From: Chloroflexi bacterium OLB13
Lineage (GTDB): Bacteria > Chloroflexota > Anaerolineae > Aggregatilineales > Phototrophicaceae
DNA length: 64,000 nt
Assembly (NCBI GenBank): GCA_001567485.1
Contig: JZRA01000120.1
Location: forward strand, 1 to 64,000
Direction of reading: 5' to 3'
Position numbers and translations under genes: made by a program. The notes beneath the pieces were generated by a model. That model was not told the origin of the DNA. It made no database searches and saw nothing but the letters and a program-made list of their open reading frames with translations. Below, in pieces: positions 15,057-20,139 of this stretch. Positions within the stretch are counted from its first letter, which is position 1. Every line of letters starts with the position of its first letter.

Positions 15057-18000
15057 ATGAATAGTAAGGCGACCAGCCCCAACCTACACAACCCCGACAT
15101 TCCTGTCTATGGGGTGGTGGCTGATCGCGCCTCGCTCCACGCCGTCCTTGAGAACATCCGCCACCACCGCCTGACCCTCGTCAGCGCCCCGCCGGGTTAC
15201 GGCAAGACAACCGCCGTCGCACAGTTCGTCCACGATACCGATCTGCTGACCGCGTGGCACGGCTTGCAGGAACGCGAGCGCGACCTTCCGGCCCTGTTCT
15301 GGCACAGCCTACAGGCGTTGGAGTTCGCTGCGCCCGGTATTTCGGTCGCGGCAGAGAGCGTCACCGGCGCGGACGAGTGCGCCGCCTATATCGCGGACTA
15401 CCTGCGCGATCACCTCTCCGAGCACATCATCTACGTGCTGGACGATCTACACTATCTGGCCTCTGCGCCGCAAGCCGAGCGCTGGCTGCGCGAACTGGTG
15501 CGCCTGATTCCACCGACGTGCCACCTCGTCCTGATCAGCCGTGCGCTGCCCGATCTGCCCCTAGCGGAACTCATCGCTCGGGGCGATGTTTTCGCTATCG
15601 GGCAGGAACAGCTCAAGTTCACGGCCGAGGACGCCAGCCAGCTCGCCAATAAGGTCGGGTCAGACCTGCCGGACGGCGTGCTCAAGGCGCGTGTCCGCCA
15701 GCTCGAAGGATGGCCTGTCGGCGTGGCGATGTCCCTGCGTCCGCTGCCGGAAGACATCGAGATCGGGTCGCTGCGCGGAAGCGGCGGGCCAGAAGGGTTG
15801 TTCGAGGCGCTCGCCAACGGCATCCTGCGGTCACTGTCCCCGATGCTCAGCGATTTTCTGCTCGCGGCATCGACGTTCGCGCGCGTCACCCCCGAGGTAT
15901 GCACCGACGTGCTCGGCATGCCGCAAAGCACGCTGATGATGATCGACATCGTGCGCCGCAACCTGTTCGTGTCGCAGGTGTCCGGCGGTGTGATGATGCA
16001 CCGCTTGTTTCGCAACTTCTTGCAGCGCCGGCTCAGCGAGGCCGACCCTGAGCGATACGTCAGCTTGCACGCGCGCGCCGCCGAATGGCTCAGGCAGCGC
16101 AATCAGGACGACGAAGCGTTCCACCATTACGTGGCGGCAGGCTGCATCGATGAAGCGCTTGAGATCGTGCAGCGCACCCACCATGCGTACTATCAGCAGG
16201 GCAACATGGAAACACTGCTCGGCTGGCGCACGGCGCTCGGCAAACATGCGGAGCGGATCCCGCACTTCCTCCACACCTGTGCGCTGATCCTGACCGATCG
16301 TTACCTGTACACGGACGCGATTGCGGAACTGGACTTGGCCGAGGCCGGTTTCGCGGCGATGGACGAGCCGGGGTGGGTCGCGGAAGCGCGTCTCCAGCGC
16401 GCGATGATCCATATCTGGCGCGCCGAGTACGCCGAAGCGCGTGCGCTGGCCGAACCCGTCTCGGTCAATACGCTGCTTAACGAGGCCGCCGTGGGACGTG
16501 CGCGGCATCTGATGGCCTTGGTCGAAATGGCGATCGGCAATCTCGATACCGCCATCGACCATCTTGAGGCTATCCTGCCGTTCTTTGAGCGCAGCAACGC
16601 GTCCTATTACGTCTCGGCAGTGCTGCAAGACCTCGCTATCGCATACGCACGCAGCGGCAGCATGGCCTCCGCCAGCCACTTTTTGCAGCGGTTGGTGTCC
16701 ATCCGGCGCACGTTGGGCCAGACCAACGCGCTGGCGCTGGCGCTCAACAACCTCGGCTACCACTATCACGAGATGGGCGACTACGAACTGGCGCTGTCGA
16801 CGCTGGAAGAAGGGCTGCACATCGTCTCGCAGTCGCAGAACCAGCGCGCAGAGAGCTATATCCGCTGGTCGATCGGTGACCTTCAGCGCGACCTCGGCAA
16901 TACCGACGCGGCGCTCCGCCTCTACGAAGGCGCGTATGAGCTGAGCGCCGGCACCGAGCCGGTGCTTCAGCAGTCGGTGGCGCTGAGCATGGCGGCGTTG
17001 TACCGCTGGCGCGGGGACATGCGGCTCGCGCAGTGGCTCGTGCGCGACGTGAACGACACCATCCGAAAGCTGGACGCATCCGACGCCTCAATCAACCGGC
17101 TCGCGCGCGCTCATCAGCTGATGATCGACCTGATCAGCGGCGACACAAAGAAGGCGGCAGCGCAGTTAGGCGCGATGTGGGAAGAGGTCTCCGAGCACCC
17201 GTTCTCCGCCGAGCTGATGCAGATCGCGATGTTCGCTGCAGTCGCTGCGCTGCGCGTCGGTCAGCAAGCGCGCGCCACGACCCTCCTCGAACGCTGCGCG
17301 AAAGCGTGTGAGATCGGCGTTGGCCGCAACATCGCCGCCATCGAAATCTTCAATTCGGGAGAGCTGGCCGAGTGCGTGCAGCGCAGCCCGCAGCTGAAAC
17401 CGCTGGCCGATGCGCTGGATCGCCTGCGCGCGGCGCGCACCGCCTCCGCCGGGCCAGAGCGTGCTGAAGGGCAAGTCGCCAACGACGCGACGTTCGGACT
17501 GCGCGTTTATGCGCTGGGCGACGAGACCATCGAACGCGACGGAGTCACCGTCTCGACTCACGAGTGGCGGTCGAGCCGCGCCAAAGAGTTCTTCCTCTAT
17601 CTGCTGTTCGAGGGCGCAAGCAGCAGAGAAAAGTTGAGCCTGATCTTTTGGCCCGACAGCTCCTCCAGCAAAGTGCGGTCGAACTTCCATACCACGCTGT
17701 ATCGCGCCCGTCGCGCGCTAGGCGAAAACGTCATCCTGTTCGAGAACGACATTTACCGCATCAACCCGGGCGTGTCGATCTGGTGCGACGCGCTCGTGTT
17801 CCGCCGTTATGTGCAGGAAGCGAAGATGCTGCCCTACCTCGACGCGCGCACCGACGACCTCTATCGTAAGGCGATTGCGTTGTATCGCGGCGAGTTCCTG
17901 CCGGGGCTGGATACCGAGTGGACGATGGCGCATCGCGAGGCGCTCTATGAGATGCACATTAGCGCGTTGATCGGCTCAGGCCATTGCGCACGCGCGCGCG

Positions 18001-18227
18001 GCGAGTTCAATGACGCGATCATCCAGTTCAAGCAGGCGCTCAAGATCGACCCGTACCGCGAAGAAGCGTATCGCGCGACGTTCACCTGCTATGCCGGCAT
18101 GGGCGAACTTAACTCCGTCCTCAAGCAGTACAACGTGATGTCCGCTATGTTCCAGACAGAATTGGGCATCAAACCTTCGCTGGAAACCGTGCGGCACGTC
18201 CAGCAGCTCACCCAGCGTATCTCCTAA
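15057..18227 (+). CDS. MalT-type ATPase / TPR / BTAD (SARP) transcriptional activator
   Basis: A 1056-residue regulator. Residues 25-330 form a MalT-like STAND ATPase with the P-loop APPGYGKTT (about 45-52) and the Walker B-like VLDDLHYL (about 130). Residues 350-780 are helical repeats (TPR-like; NNLGYHYHEMGDYELALSTLEEGL). Residues 812-900 are an OmpR-type winged helix with RSSRAKEFFLYLLFEG and SNFHTTLYRARRALGE, followed by a bacterial transcriptional activator domain (908-1053; YRGEFLPGLDTEW, DPYREEAYRA). Such proteins switch on nearby operons when an inducer triggers the ATPase. This one lies directly upstream of three small genes in the same direction. ATG 15057 is preferred over 14970, which would overlap the leader hairpins. 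Confidence 0.9.
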   Translation: MNSKATSPNLHNPDIPVYGVVADRASLHAVLENIRHHRLTLVSAPPGYGKTTAVAQFVHDTDLLTAWHGLQERERDLPALFWHSLQALEFAAPGISVAAESVTGADECAAYIADYLRDHLSEHIIYVLDDLHYLASAPQAERWLRELVRLIPPTCHLVLISRALPDLPLAELIARGDVFAIGQEQLKFTAEDASQLANKVGSDLPDGVLKARVRQLEGWPVGVAMSLRPLPEDIEIGSLRGSGGPEGLFEALANGILRSLSPMLSDFLLAASTFARVTPEVCTDVLGMPQSTLMMIDIVRRNLFVSQVSGGVMMHRLFRNFLQRRLSEADPERYVSLHARAAEWLRQRNQDDEAFHHYVAAGCIDEALEIVQRTHHAYYQQGNMETLLGWRTALGKHAERIPHFLHTCALILTDRYLYTDAIAELDLAEAGFAAMDEPGWVAEARLQRAMIHIWRAEYAEARALAEPVSVNTLLNEAAVGRARHLMALVEMAIGNLDTAIDHLEAILPFFERSNASYYVSAVLQDLAIAYARSGSMASASHFLQRLVSIRRTLGQTNALALALNNLGYHYHEMGDYELALSTLEEGLHIVSQSQNQRAESYIRWSIGDLQRDLGNTDAALRLYEGAYELSAGTEPVLQQSVALSMAALYRWRGDMRLAQWLVRDVNDTIRKLDASDASINRLARAHQLMIDLISGDTKKAAAQLGAMWEEVSEHPFSAELMQIAMFAAVAALRVGQQARATTLLERCAKACEIGVGRNIAAIEIFNSGELAECVQRSPQLKPLADALDRLRAARTASAGPERAEGQVANDATFGLRVYALGDETIERDGVTVSTHEWRSSRAKEFFLYLLFEGASSREKLSLIFWPDSSSSKVRSNFHTTLYRARRALGENVILFENDIYRINPGVSIWCDALVFRRYVQEAKMLPYLDARTDDLYRKAIALYRGEFLPGLDTEWTMAHREALYEMHISALIGSGHCARARGEFNDAIIQFKQALKIDPYREEAYRATFTCYAGMGELNSVLKQYNVMSAMFQTELGIKPSLETVRHVQQLTQRIS

Positions 18228-18627
18228 CAGAGTCGCCCACAGCGGCAGATTCCGGACGTCGGCCGCGCGCTCGGCCATACTGCCCTCTCACCGTCAATAT
18301 CGACCCGTCCAACGCACATAGGGCGGCGCGAGTCGTTATCCTATAGTTAATTGGTACCGGTCGTTCAGACTCGTCTTGAAGGTCTTTATTCTTTTGCGTT
18401 AGGATTCTGTAATCACAGGGGTTCGCAGCAGCGATTATCCACTGCCGGAACCCGACCTGCGCCCACCTTATCCCCCTTATTGGCGCGGGAATCCCACACC
18501 ATCGTCTGCGTTTGTGCGCTGATCTTACTGTGTTTTCGTTTGGTAAGCAGTTTGTTGCACACCCACCGCAATACTCATCGCAATTGGCAATTCCATTTCG
18601 TTGTGCGTCTGTTCACGGAGGTCTGTC
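18228..18627 (+). promoter_or_regulatory. 400-bp leader/promoter region of the small-peptide genes
   Basis: This gap is AT-richer than its surroundings and holds no believable gene. A possible promoter is TTGAAG (18376-18381), 18 bp, TAGGAT (18400-18405). Just downstream, 18419-18453 can fold into a hairpin with stems GGGTTC/GAACCC and GCAG/CTGC. If transcription starts near 18412, the peptide mRNA has a structured leader of about 215 nt. It is a plausible target region for the adjacent BTAD activator, but direct repeats typical of SARP sites were not obvious. Confidence 0.4.
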
Positions 18628-18795
18628 ATGTTCACTTACGCTTTGAATTCCCTCGGTCTGTTTTCGGTCAACAAGCGCGTTCTGGTCATCGTCTTCACCG
18701 CCGTCCTGCTCACCATCGCCCTGATGGCGATCTCCGGCACCGTCTTCGCTGGCCCGGCCACCTCGCCCAGCGCCTGCGGCATGTGCTCTGGCTAG
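18628..18795 (+). CDS. Small secreted CxxC peptide precursor, 55 residues
   Basis: I do not recognise a family. The ATG at 18628 follows GGAGG with 7-nt spacing. The product has a short N-terminus with NKR, one strongly hydrophobic helix (residues 18-36, VLVIVFTAVLLTIALMAIS), a signal-peptidase-like VFA site at 39-41, and a tail GPATSPSACGMCSG. Cleavage would release a 14-residue peptide with two cysteines in a CGMC arrangement, suited to a disulfide, thioether or metal site. Uncleaved, it would be a membrane-anchored CxxC tail. The gene lies between a BTAD activator and a protein resembling RiPP leader domains, so a peptide natural product, signal or redox role is possible. No function is claimed. 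Confidence 0.6.
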   Translation: MFTYALNSLGLFSVNKRVLVIVFTAVLLTIALMAISGTVFAGPATSPSACGMCSG

Positions 18796-18842
18796 ACATC
18801 ACGCATCGACTTTTGAAATTTGCGAGTGCACAGGAGTCAACA

Positions 18843-19157
18843 ATGAACGCTCATCGTCTTCCCCAGGACATGGTTCTGGACATCACCTCGGTCGGTGGCA
18901 AGCGCGGGTTTACCGGCGCCGATGAATGGTGGAGCCATGTGCGCAATCAGGACGAACGCCGCCGCCTCGACAACCTGCTCGGTGTCGCGCTGCTCGACGA
19001 AAACGTGCGCCGCCGTCTGGTCGACAACCGCGACGACGAACTGCTCAACGCGTTCGGCCTGTCCGAGTCGACAAAGTGGTGGATCGGCACGCTTTCCGCC
19101 AGCTCGCTCAGTGACATCGCCCGCGAAGTCGCCGCCAACTTCCAGAAGAGCGCATAG
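18843..19157 (+). CDS. Small protein resembling RiPP leader / LigA-like domain
   Basis: A 104-residue cytoplasmic protein; the ATG is preceded by AGGAG at 8 nt. Residues 40-100 read LDNLLGVALLDENVRRRLV, then LLNAFGLSES and SASSLSDIAREVAANF. This spacing (short helix, A-x-x-D-x-x-x-R-x-x-L, FGLS, then a Leu/Ala helix) resembles the LigA-like fold found in Franean1_4349-type RiPP precursors common in Chloroflexota and Actinobacteria. The N-terminal 35 residues are different (GGKRGFTGADEWW). It has no Cys, so if it is a precursor the core is not an obvious lanthipeptide. It lies 47 bp after the CxxC peptide and is probably co-transcribed. The resemblance is from memory of the pattern. Confidence 0.6.
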   Translation: MNAHRLPQDMVLDITSVGGKRGFTGADEWWSHVRNQDERRRLDNLLGVALLDENVRRRLVDNRDDELLNAFGLSESTKWWIGTLSASSLSDIAREVAANFQKSA

Positions 19158-19267
19158 CGATGAACGCGCTGCGTAGTCCCCAAAACGGGCGGCGTATCGA
19201 CACACGCCGACACACAGGGACGACCGAACCATTAGGGCCACCGGCGAGAACTGAGGACAGATTGCAG

Positions 19268-19756
19268 ATGGGTTCGAAAACCATCTCTATCAATCGAGAC
19301 GTCTCGGTGCAGCGCATGCTGCGGCTGGACGCGCCAGACAATCTGCTCATCAATGGGTTCGACTCGCTGTGGAAATGTCACGCGATGCTGCAGTCGCGCC
19401 TTAGCAGCACCGACCGGCACGACATCCGCATCCATCTCCGGCCCGAGCTGCTCAACGCAAACGCTGAACAGTACGCCCAGTTCGCCCGTGACGGGTTGAA
19501 GATATGGGTCTGGCAGGATGATCCGGCCTCGGACTTCCGACCGTCATCGAACGTAACGGTGGTCAACGCCCCGCACGCGCCGGCGACGGCCGAGGGCTTC
19601 CTCGTCATCAACACGCCGTCTTGGAGCCGTGTGCTAGCTGCGTGGATCGACGAGGATGGCAATTTGGCGGGCGTGCTCGTCACCAACCCGCAGACGATTG
19701 ACGAGGTTTCGAGCTACTTGGATGCGATGGTTCAGTCAGCTTCCGTTCGGACGTAG
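19268..19756 (+). CDS. Hypothetical protein, 162 residues
   Basis: No family recognised. From ATG 19268 (preceded by GAGGACA) the product is a soluble alpha/beta protein without signal peptide or membrane helix. Segments include RMLRLDAPDNLLINGFDSLW, IHLRPELLNANAEQYAQFA, LKIWVWQDDPASDFRP and TPSWSRVLAAWIDEDG, ending in a helix TIDEVSSYLDAMV. An in-frame ATG at 19160, two bases after the previous stop, would add 36 basic, low-complexity residues. That stretch opens MNALRSPQ, strikingly like the MNAHRLPQ start of the preceding gene. It is the last of three small genes after the BTAD activator and overlaps the convergent receiver gene by 25 bp. Confidence 0.6.
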   Translation: MGSKTISINRDVSVQRMLRLDAPDNLLINGFDSLWKCHAMLQSRLSSTDRHDIRIHLRPELLNANAEQYAQFARDGLKIWVWQDDPASDFRPSSNVTVVNAPHAPATAEGFLVINTPSWSRVLAAWIDEDGNLAGVLVTNPQTIDEVSSYLDAMVQSASVRT

Positions 19757-20139
19757 TCGCGCCGCCGCGACACACGCTGCGCGACGTGGGTCAACAGTTC
19801 GTCAAGGACGATCGGTCGGGAGAGGCTCACCGACCACGGATCACGGCTATCGCGCCTCGCGGTATCGGCGACAATCACGGCGTTGGCCGGCTGGTGTGCA
19901 GAGGTTTCGCGGATCGCAGGTGCGCCACGCACAACCGCCGTCAGCGCGTCGACAAGCTCTGACGCGCAAATCACAACCTGCACCCGGACATGATTCAGGA
20001 CATGGCGCGCGTCAAGCATCCCTGCCGTCGCCATCACCTGATAGCCCGCGCGACTGAGCAGTTCTTTGAGATCAAGCCGTATACCGGCATCGGGTTCAAC
20101 AATAAGAACCTGACACTCGTTACGCATAAACAAATCCAT
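19732..20139 (-). CDS. Degenerate response-regulator receiver protein
   Basis: A 135-residue stand-alone CheY-like domain. The N-terminal strand and acidic pocket are recognisable (CQVLIVEPDAGIRLDLKELLSRAGY), but at the end of strand 3 the phosphoacceptor Asp is absent (VQVVICASELVDA), and the conserved Lys before Pro is Arg (LSRPIVLDELL). It is therefore probably a pseudo-receiver that does not accept phosphate. It has a good promoter of its own (20160-20188). The start may be ATG 20127 (MRNECQV) rather than 20139; neither has a clear ribosome site. It is convergent with, and overlaps, the last small gene of the BTAD cluster. Confidence 0.7.
   Translation of the reverse strand: MDLFMRNECQVLIVEPDAGIRLDLKELLSRAGYQVMATAGMLDARHVLNHVRVQVVICASELVDALTAVVRGAPAIRETSAHQPANAVIVADTARRDSRDPWSVSLSRPIVLDELLTHVAQRVSRRRDYVRTEAD

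Follow-up and report, generated by a model that had tools for sequence, protein, structure and literature searches.

What does a large activator with a BTAD domain control when it stands ahead of a group of very small genes, and is the product of these genes a modified peptide or a signal? The question is raised by a locus of Chloroflexi bacterium OLB13, in which a regulator gene is followed, after a gap of about 400 bp, by genes for a 55-residue micropeptide and two further small proteins, B and C. All four open reading frames (ORFs) lie on the plus strand of the window, i.e. the whole stretch of 64,000 nucleotides that was analysed, and they were confirmed where an initial annotation had placed a MalT-BTAD gene followed by three small same-strand genes. 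Comparison with related genomes reveals a conserved unit, which consists of the regulator, the predicted operator with its -10 promoter, the micropeptide of exported type, and B. We give about an even chance to the reading that this unit is an autoregulated pair of an exported peptide and a TPR activator, RRNPP-like in its working and built from SARP/STAND parts.

Conservation of the gene order

A BTAD gene precedes a gene for B in 43 loci, and in 40 of these a micropeptide gene is situated between the two. An automatic filter for small ORFs between the BTAD and B genes, which asks for a hydrophobic segment and a short tail, returned 38 of the 43, while the peptides of the window and of locus L135, missed by the filter only, bring the number to 40. 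As a control, the filter gave 5 of 43 on the reverse strand, and 3.95 were expected from Markov shuffles. The BTAD-peptide-B order recurs throughout the class Anaerolineae, and genome G025 contains a complete regulator-peptide-B-C set syntenic with that of the window. Thus, the earlier expectation that the three small genes travel together holds for the peptide and B (40/43 loci versus about 4-5 by chance) but not for C, which is found in one relative only. The peptide ORF is conserved and syntenic in relatives far above chance and is under purifying selection there.

Six genomes yielded 35 BTAD matches. Among those with a readable downstream region, only the B-linked BTAD gene is followed by the micropeptide. 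In G163, the filter finds no micropeptide even at the B-linked BTAD gene. At L197, one hydrophobic ORF follows the BTAD gene, and it is unlike the micropeptide family.

Metagenome-assembled genomes are the source of most loci, and contigs seem to be broken by several of the arrays. In G024, G033 and G069, micropeptides or B are found at contig ends, with their partners on other contigs. Since tandem arrays probably break assemblies in this way, the module is under-counted. The module is also patchy, since the congener G002 lacks B and G001 has a weak match only.

The micropeptide family

The micropeptide of the window matched no family in direct family searches, while the micropeptide profile, of which the window peptide is itself a row, finds it in its own genome at 2.3e-10. 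Several loci carry tandem copies of the peptide gene, namely five in L126, three in L130 and two each in L138 and L156. The tandem copies in G138 differ by many synonymous and few replacement substitutions (12 versus 0 in one pair), and in the remaining tandem pairs with a finite estimate the replacement rate (dN) is below the synonymous rate (dS). Judged by this substitution pattern, the micropeptides are under strong purifying selection, and the micropeptide is a real gene.

An alignment of 21 peptides shows an N-terminal W..(S/A)DPRR motif in most of them, followed by a hydrophobic core, a boundary and a tail. The W-x-x-(S/A)-D-P-R-R segment has 31.5% identity, which is above that of the transmembrane (TM) segment. 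At the boundary, among aligned relatives with a residue at the respective position, Ala is found at -1 in 20 of 20, Ala, Val, Thr or Gly at -3 in 18 of 20, and Gly at +1 in 17 of 20. This A-x-A|G boundary resembles a signal-peptidase I site, and cleavage is predicted. The tails beyond it are 6-19 residues long (commonest length 8), rich in Gly and Ser, almost uncharged and mostly free of Cys. The precursor at L135 (genome G150) encodes DGQAPGGSYTDGQAPGGSYTLDGQAPGGSYDQ, which contains three identical GQAPGGSY units separated by TD/TLD linkers; these units resemble the single GQASGGSG tail of L126, and the three-unit precursor is like multi-pheromone precursors. The description of a secreted CxxC peptide was retained only in part: the 55-residue gene is conserved, whereas CxxC, found in a minority of relatives, was rejected as a key feature, and the peptides of most relatives have no cysteine.

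Other families of Chloroflexota encode a DUF5317 membrane protein between the micropeptide and B (L156:2758-3369(-), L159:3635-4216 and L161:3870-4427), and the same place is occupied by DUF5317 in L151, L154, L227, L230, L232, L244 and L248; its identity was confirmed with Pfam in three loci and judged by eye in the others. At these loci, the peptide tails mostly start with G-A-P directly after the hydrophobic segment. DUF5317 is absent from the genome of the window, and a search in plasmids found none. It is possible that this protein is a dedicated processing or export partner of the micropeptide.

The candidate operator and promoter

The gap between the regulator and the micropeptide (18228-18627) has a G+C content of about 54-57%, compared with 63-66% in its surroundings, which agrees with the AT-richer leader described before. 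The importance attributed to this leader is also borne out, as it holds a conserved 24-bp candidate operator and a -10 box. Of the 43 loci, 29 have the 24-bp element close to the start of the peptide gene, and in 24 of these 29 TAnnnT follows exactly 5 bp past it, while this box is almost never seen at other offsets; within the box, A2 is present in 29/29 and T6 in 27/29. Allowing at most one mismatch, 25 of the 154 order genomes contain the operator, with one copy each, while the reversed-pattern control gave 0. A micropeptide starts 31-100 bp downstream in 22 of these 25 genomes; the sites without such a micropeptide are G141:C315, G104 and G024:C200. Neither the window nor its genome has a second zero-mismatch operator, and at 2-3 mismatches the number of copies exceeds that of the reversed-pattern control modestly. 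The internal repeat of the operator is imperfect, with a period of 11-12 bp. Its spacing and position mark this as a promoter of the activator type, with the predicted operator in the -35 position. That the regulator, the peptide and the switch travel together across Anaerolineae suggests peptide-based cell signalling.

Architecture of the regulator and co-variation of its domains

Pfam identified BTAD (PF03704, 65 bits) and TPR_12 (61.8 bits) in the regulator. Residues 24-364 match MalT (8bob, E 7e-25) and residues 804-1042 match AfsR (8hvr, E 5e-4); therefore, the protein combines a MalT-type STAND ATPase (about 24-364), a TPR sensor (about 390-760) and a C-terminal AfsR/SARP-like winged helix with BTAD (about 804-1050). 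Against the MalT model NF003420 it scores 144 bits, under the equivalog cut-off of 537, and its C-terminus carries BTAD and not a LuxR helix-turn-helix (HTH). The DNA-binding part is C-terminal, with no N-terminal HTH ahead of the TPR.

Co-variation between the parts of the cassette is domain-specific. Across 21 loci, operator distance correlates with that of the winged helix/BTAD when the ATPase and TPR are removed (partial r 0.465, p 0.001), and shows no correlation with the TPR or ATPase. Across 30 loci, tail distance follows the TPR when the ATPase and BTAD are removed (partial r about 0.2, p 0.001-0.002), a correlation that is stable to tail length. In the same number of loci, the distance of B follows the ATPase/BTAD and not the TPR.

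Protein B

B has relatives, mostly a single one per genome, in 44 of the 154 order genomes; at class level, the count is 100 of 396. A search of viral contigs for such relatives found none. In direct searches, B of the window matched neither NF038399 nor any other family. On NF038399 (Os1348 family of the NHLP clan, cut-off 40), three relatives at class level reach 54.7-69.7 bits, and they lie just under the cut-off of Frankia_peptide (PF14407). The likeness of B to leaders of ribosomally synthesized and post-translationally modified peptides (RiPPs) or to LigA, pointed out initially, is thereby confirmed through its relatives at the level of the Os1348/NHLP clan. Unlike in Os1348/NHLP systems, there is no core peptide and there are no RiPP enzymes here, and the domain is linked to a BTAD regulator and a micropeptide. 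The AlphaFold2 (AF2) model of B is helical (predicted local distance difference test, pLDDT, 79), with no confident match in the PDB (best E 3.4). B is treated here as a repurposed leader-like domain without a core region. Because it co-varies with the ATPase/BTAD parts, B is perhaps a partner of the regulator.

Proposed mechanism and comparison with known systems

From domain homology and co-variation, we infer that the C-terminal winged helix/BTAD would bind the 24-bp operator and that the bound regulator would recruit RNA polymerase to the peptide-B(-C) operon. The precursor would be inserted by Sec and cut by signal peptidase at A-x-A|G, which would release a Gly-rich peptide of 8-14 residues. 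This peptide, or a fragment of the tail, may return to the cell, probably via a general oligopeptide importer, and bind the TPR sensor of the regulator; the contact of tail and TPR is what homology and co-variation suggest. Binding of the tail would then switch the STAND ATPase, leading to positive feedback and autoinduction, while B and the neighbouring receiver may carry or tune the output. A broader proposal, which we hold tentatively and with slightly less than even confidence, is that Chloroflexota have a class-wide peptide quorum sensing: STAND/TPR/SARP activators would directly receive the peptides after their re-import, a receiver and an Os1348-type protein would act as dedicated partners, and RRNPP-like signalling would have evolved independently.

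RRNPP systems are recognised by a TPR receptor whose gene is adjacent to that of a secreted propeptide of 10-100 aa, in which intragenic duplication occurs (PMC10075063); the receptors have 285-473 aa, and the pairs have been described in Bacillota (PMC10075063, PMC11343458). As in RRNPP(A) systems (Rap-Phr, PlcR-PapR, NprR-NprX, Rgg-SHP, AimR-AimP), a TPR receptor gene here adjoins a small propeptide gene, putatively of Sec type, with a short C-terminal predicted mature peptide and intragenic or tandem pheromone duplication (PMC10075063, PMC11343458). In contrast, the receptor of 1056 aa is outside the criterion of 250-500 aa, it has a MalT-type ATPase and a C-terminal SARP-like DNA-binding part where RRNPP receptors have an N-terminal HTH (or none), and it belongs to Chloroflexota, with an additional B protein and receiver; binding of the mature peptide to the TPR domain, as in RRNPP, is suggested indirectly by the tail/TPR co-variation. 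Since the architecture and tandem repeats match but the receptor differs in size and in its DNA-binding domain, the system appears RRNPP-like in its working without being a member of RRNPP.

With AfsR/SARP and the SARP-LAL regulator PimR, the regulator has in common the winged helix with BTAD, the ATPase and the TPR; however, its DNA-binding part is C-terminal and not N-terminal as in SARP, and the proposed target is a linked exported peptide. SARP operators are heptameric direct repeats with an 11-bp period, which overlap the -35 region just upstream of the -10 box (PMC10972967, PMC5930380). The candidate operator resembles this layout, with putative half-sites about one helical turn apart at the -35 position, but these half-sites are imperfect and their period is 11-12 bp. 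MalT and other STAND activators share the N-terminal NOD-type ATPase and a helical-repeat sensor, but MalT has a LuxR HTH output and maltotriose as its inducer, compared with a SARP/BTAD output and a proposed peptide inducer here.

BTAD and DUF5317 genes are both present in the control genome of Thermotoga maritima, whose density-dependent peptide is presumably TM0504. This small peptide is attributed to Johnson et al. (2005) in PMC4187201, and the combination of a small peptide tied to cell density with BTAD and DUF5317 genes in the genome is a lead only.

Peptide pheromones with TPR receptors have been described for Bacillota and their phages, while our literature search on BTAD/TPR/peptide, Os1348, DUF5317 and TM0504, which covered few subscription journals, found no such system described in Chloroflexota. 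If the signalling reading is true, it provides a testable communication code for a large and mostly uncultured class and offers a function for BTAD/STAND regulators of unknown inducer. The operator and the predicted mature peptides are specific enough to be ordered as oligonucleotides and synthetic peptides.

Alternative explanations

Several observations weigh against a signalling system. AXA anywhere after the TM segment is found in 38/43 loci compared with 35/43 in shuffles, with only the aligned position being striking, and some class-level peptides (e.g. L148, L149 and L164) have no obvious cleavage site; therefore, their tail could remain membrane-bound. The signal segment also correlates with the TPR, though more weakly than the tail, and Mantel tests are liberal (over-call) for related sequences, so the co-variation is supporting evidence and not proof. 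Outside the operon, no regulated target was found among the two operator copies with 2-3 mismatches that were looked at. In an alternative reading, the micropeptide is a membrane-tethered micro-sensor: its tail would sense an envelope condition on the outside, and its cytoplasmic W-x-x-(S/A)-D-P-R-R segment would recruit or hold either B or the regulator. The conservation of this segment above that of the TM segment, the relatives without an A-x-A site and the DUF5317 membrane protein that joins the cluster in other families would fit such a sensor. Nevertheless, we consider it unlikely, as peptides in the order of the window hardly vary at the -1 Ala/+1 Gly boundary, the tail repeats in one precursor and the five tandem precursors are hard to explain, and the W..DPRR motif is missing from the peptide of the window itself.

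It is still less probable that the exported peptide is an end product, i.e. a bacteriocin or RiPP modified by enzymes encoded elsewhere, with B as a leader-like helper. The relatives of B do match the Os1348 NHLP-clan and Frankia_peptide models, and SARP/BTAD regulators often control specialised products (PMC10972967). However, the observation of the initial annotation that the cluster has no modification enzyme or exporter was confirmed beside the cassette, both in the window and in the inspected flanks of relatives. Moreover, the operator is unique to the cassette, the tail tracks the TPR of the receptor, and the short, nearly uncharged Gly/Ser tails look like oligopeptides released by signal peptidase. 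With no enzymes nearby and a core-less B, a RiPP was rejected as the main explanation; of the earlier interpretation, the regulator-plus-peptide system stands and the modified product does not. The TPR receptor beside the peptide gene, the tandem copies, the repeated tails, the candidate autoregulatory operator and the tail/TPR co-variation together fit signalling better. Finally, an ordinary regulator beside unrelated small genes, kept together by chance or operon inertia, would be in line with the patchy distribution and the congeners G001 and G002, but is very improbable in view of the class-wide gene order in 40/43 loci, the domain-specific co-variation and the absence of the micropeptide at BTAD paralogues; it is also contradicted by the synteny controls, the purifying selection and the distribution of the operator in the genomes of the order.

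Layout of the locus and neighbouring genes

Table 1. Features of the regulator-micropeptide locus in the window.
Feature	Position	Strand	Basis
Regulator/receptor, 1056 aa	15057..18227	+	Pfam BTAD and TPR_12; MalT and AfsR similarity
Candidate operator TGGTAAGCAGTTTGTTGCACACCC, 24 bp, at the usual -35 place	18541..18564	+	29/43 loci; co-varies with winged helix and BTAD
-10 box AATACT, exactly 5 bp past the operator	18570..18575	+	Fixed offset across loci
Ribosome-binding site GGAGGT of the micropeptide	18617..18622	+	Sequence inspection
Micropeptide precursor, 55 aa, ..VFAGPATSPSACGMCSG	18628..18795	+	Profile match, alignment, selection on relatives, synteny
Predicted mature tail GPATSPSACGMCSG, 14 aa, after VFA|	18751..18792	+	Aligned boundary residues in relatives
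Protein B, 104 aa, all-helical	18843..19157	+	Relatives in order and class; AF2 model
Protein C, 162 aa, local addition	19268..19756	+	Only one convincing relative, at the corresponding place in G025 (L165)
Degenerate receiver-like protein, convergent with C	19732..20139	-	PF00072 20.5 bits, cut-off 30.2

Protein C had no family match in direct searches, and its profile gave nothing against the PDB; the AF2 model (pLDDT 47) is unusable and was not interpreted. It is present in two genomes only and was rejected as a part of the conserved core.

In most order-level loci, a CheY-like receiver follows B, and the receivers of these relatives score 36-94 bits. The window instead has C at this place, together with the degenerate, convergent receiver-like ORF.

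In two genomes (L060:5592-5873 and L061), a small conserved ORF (MCRNIKTLYNFEPPATEDEVRAAA..), presumably DUF2277-like, is inserted between the regulator and the peptide.

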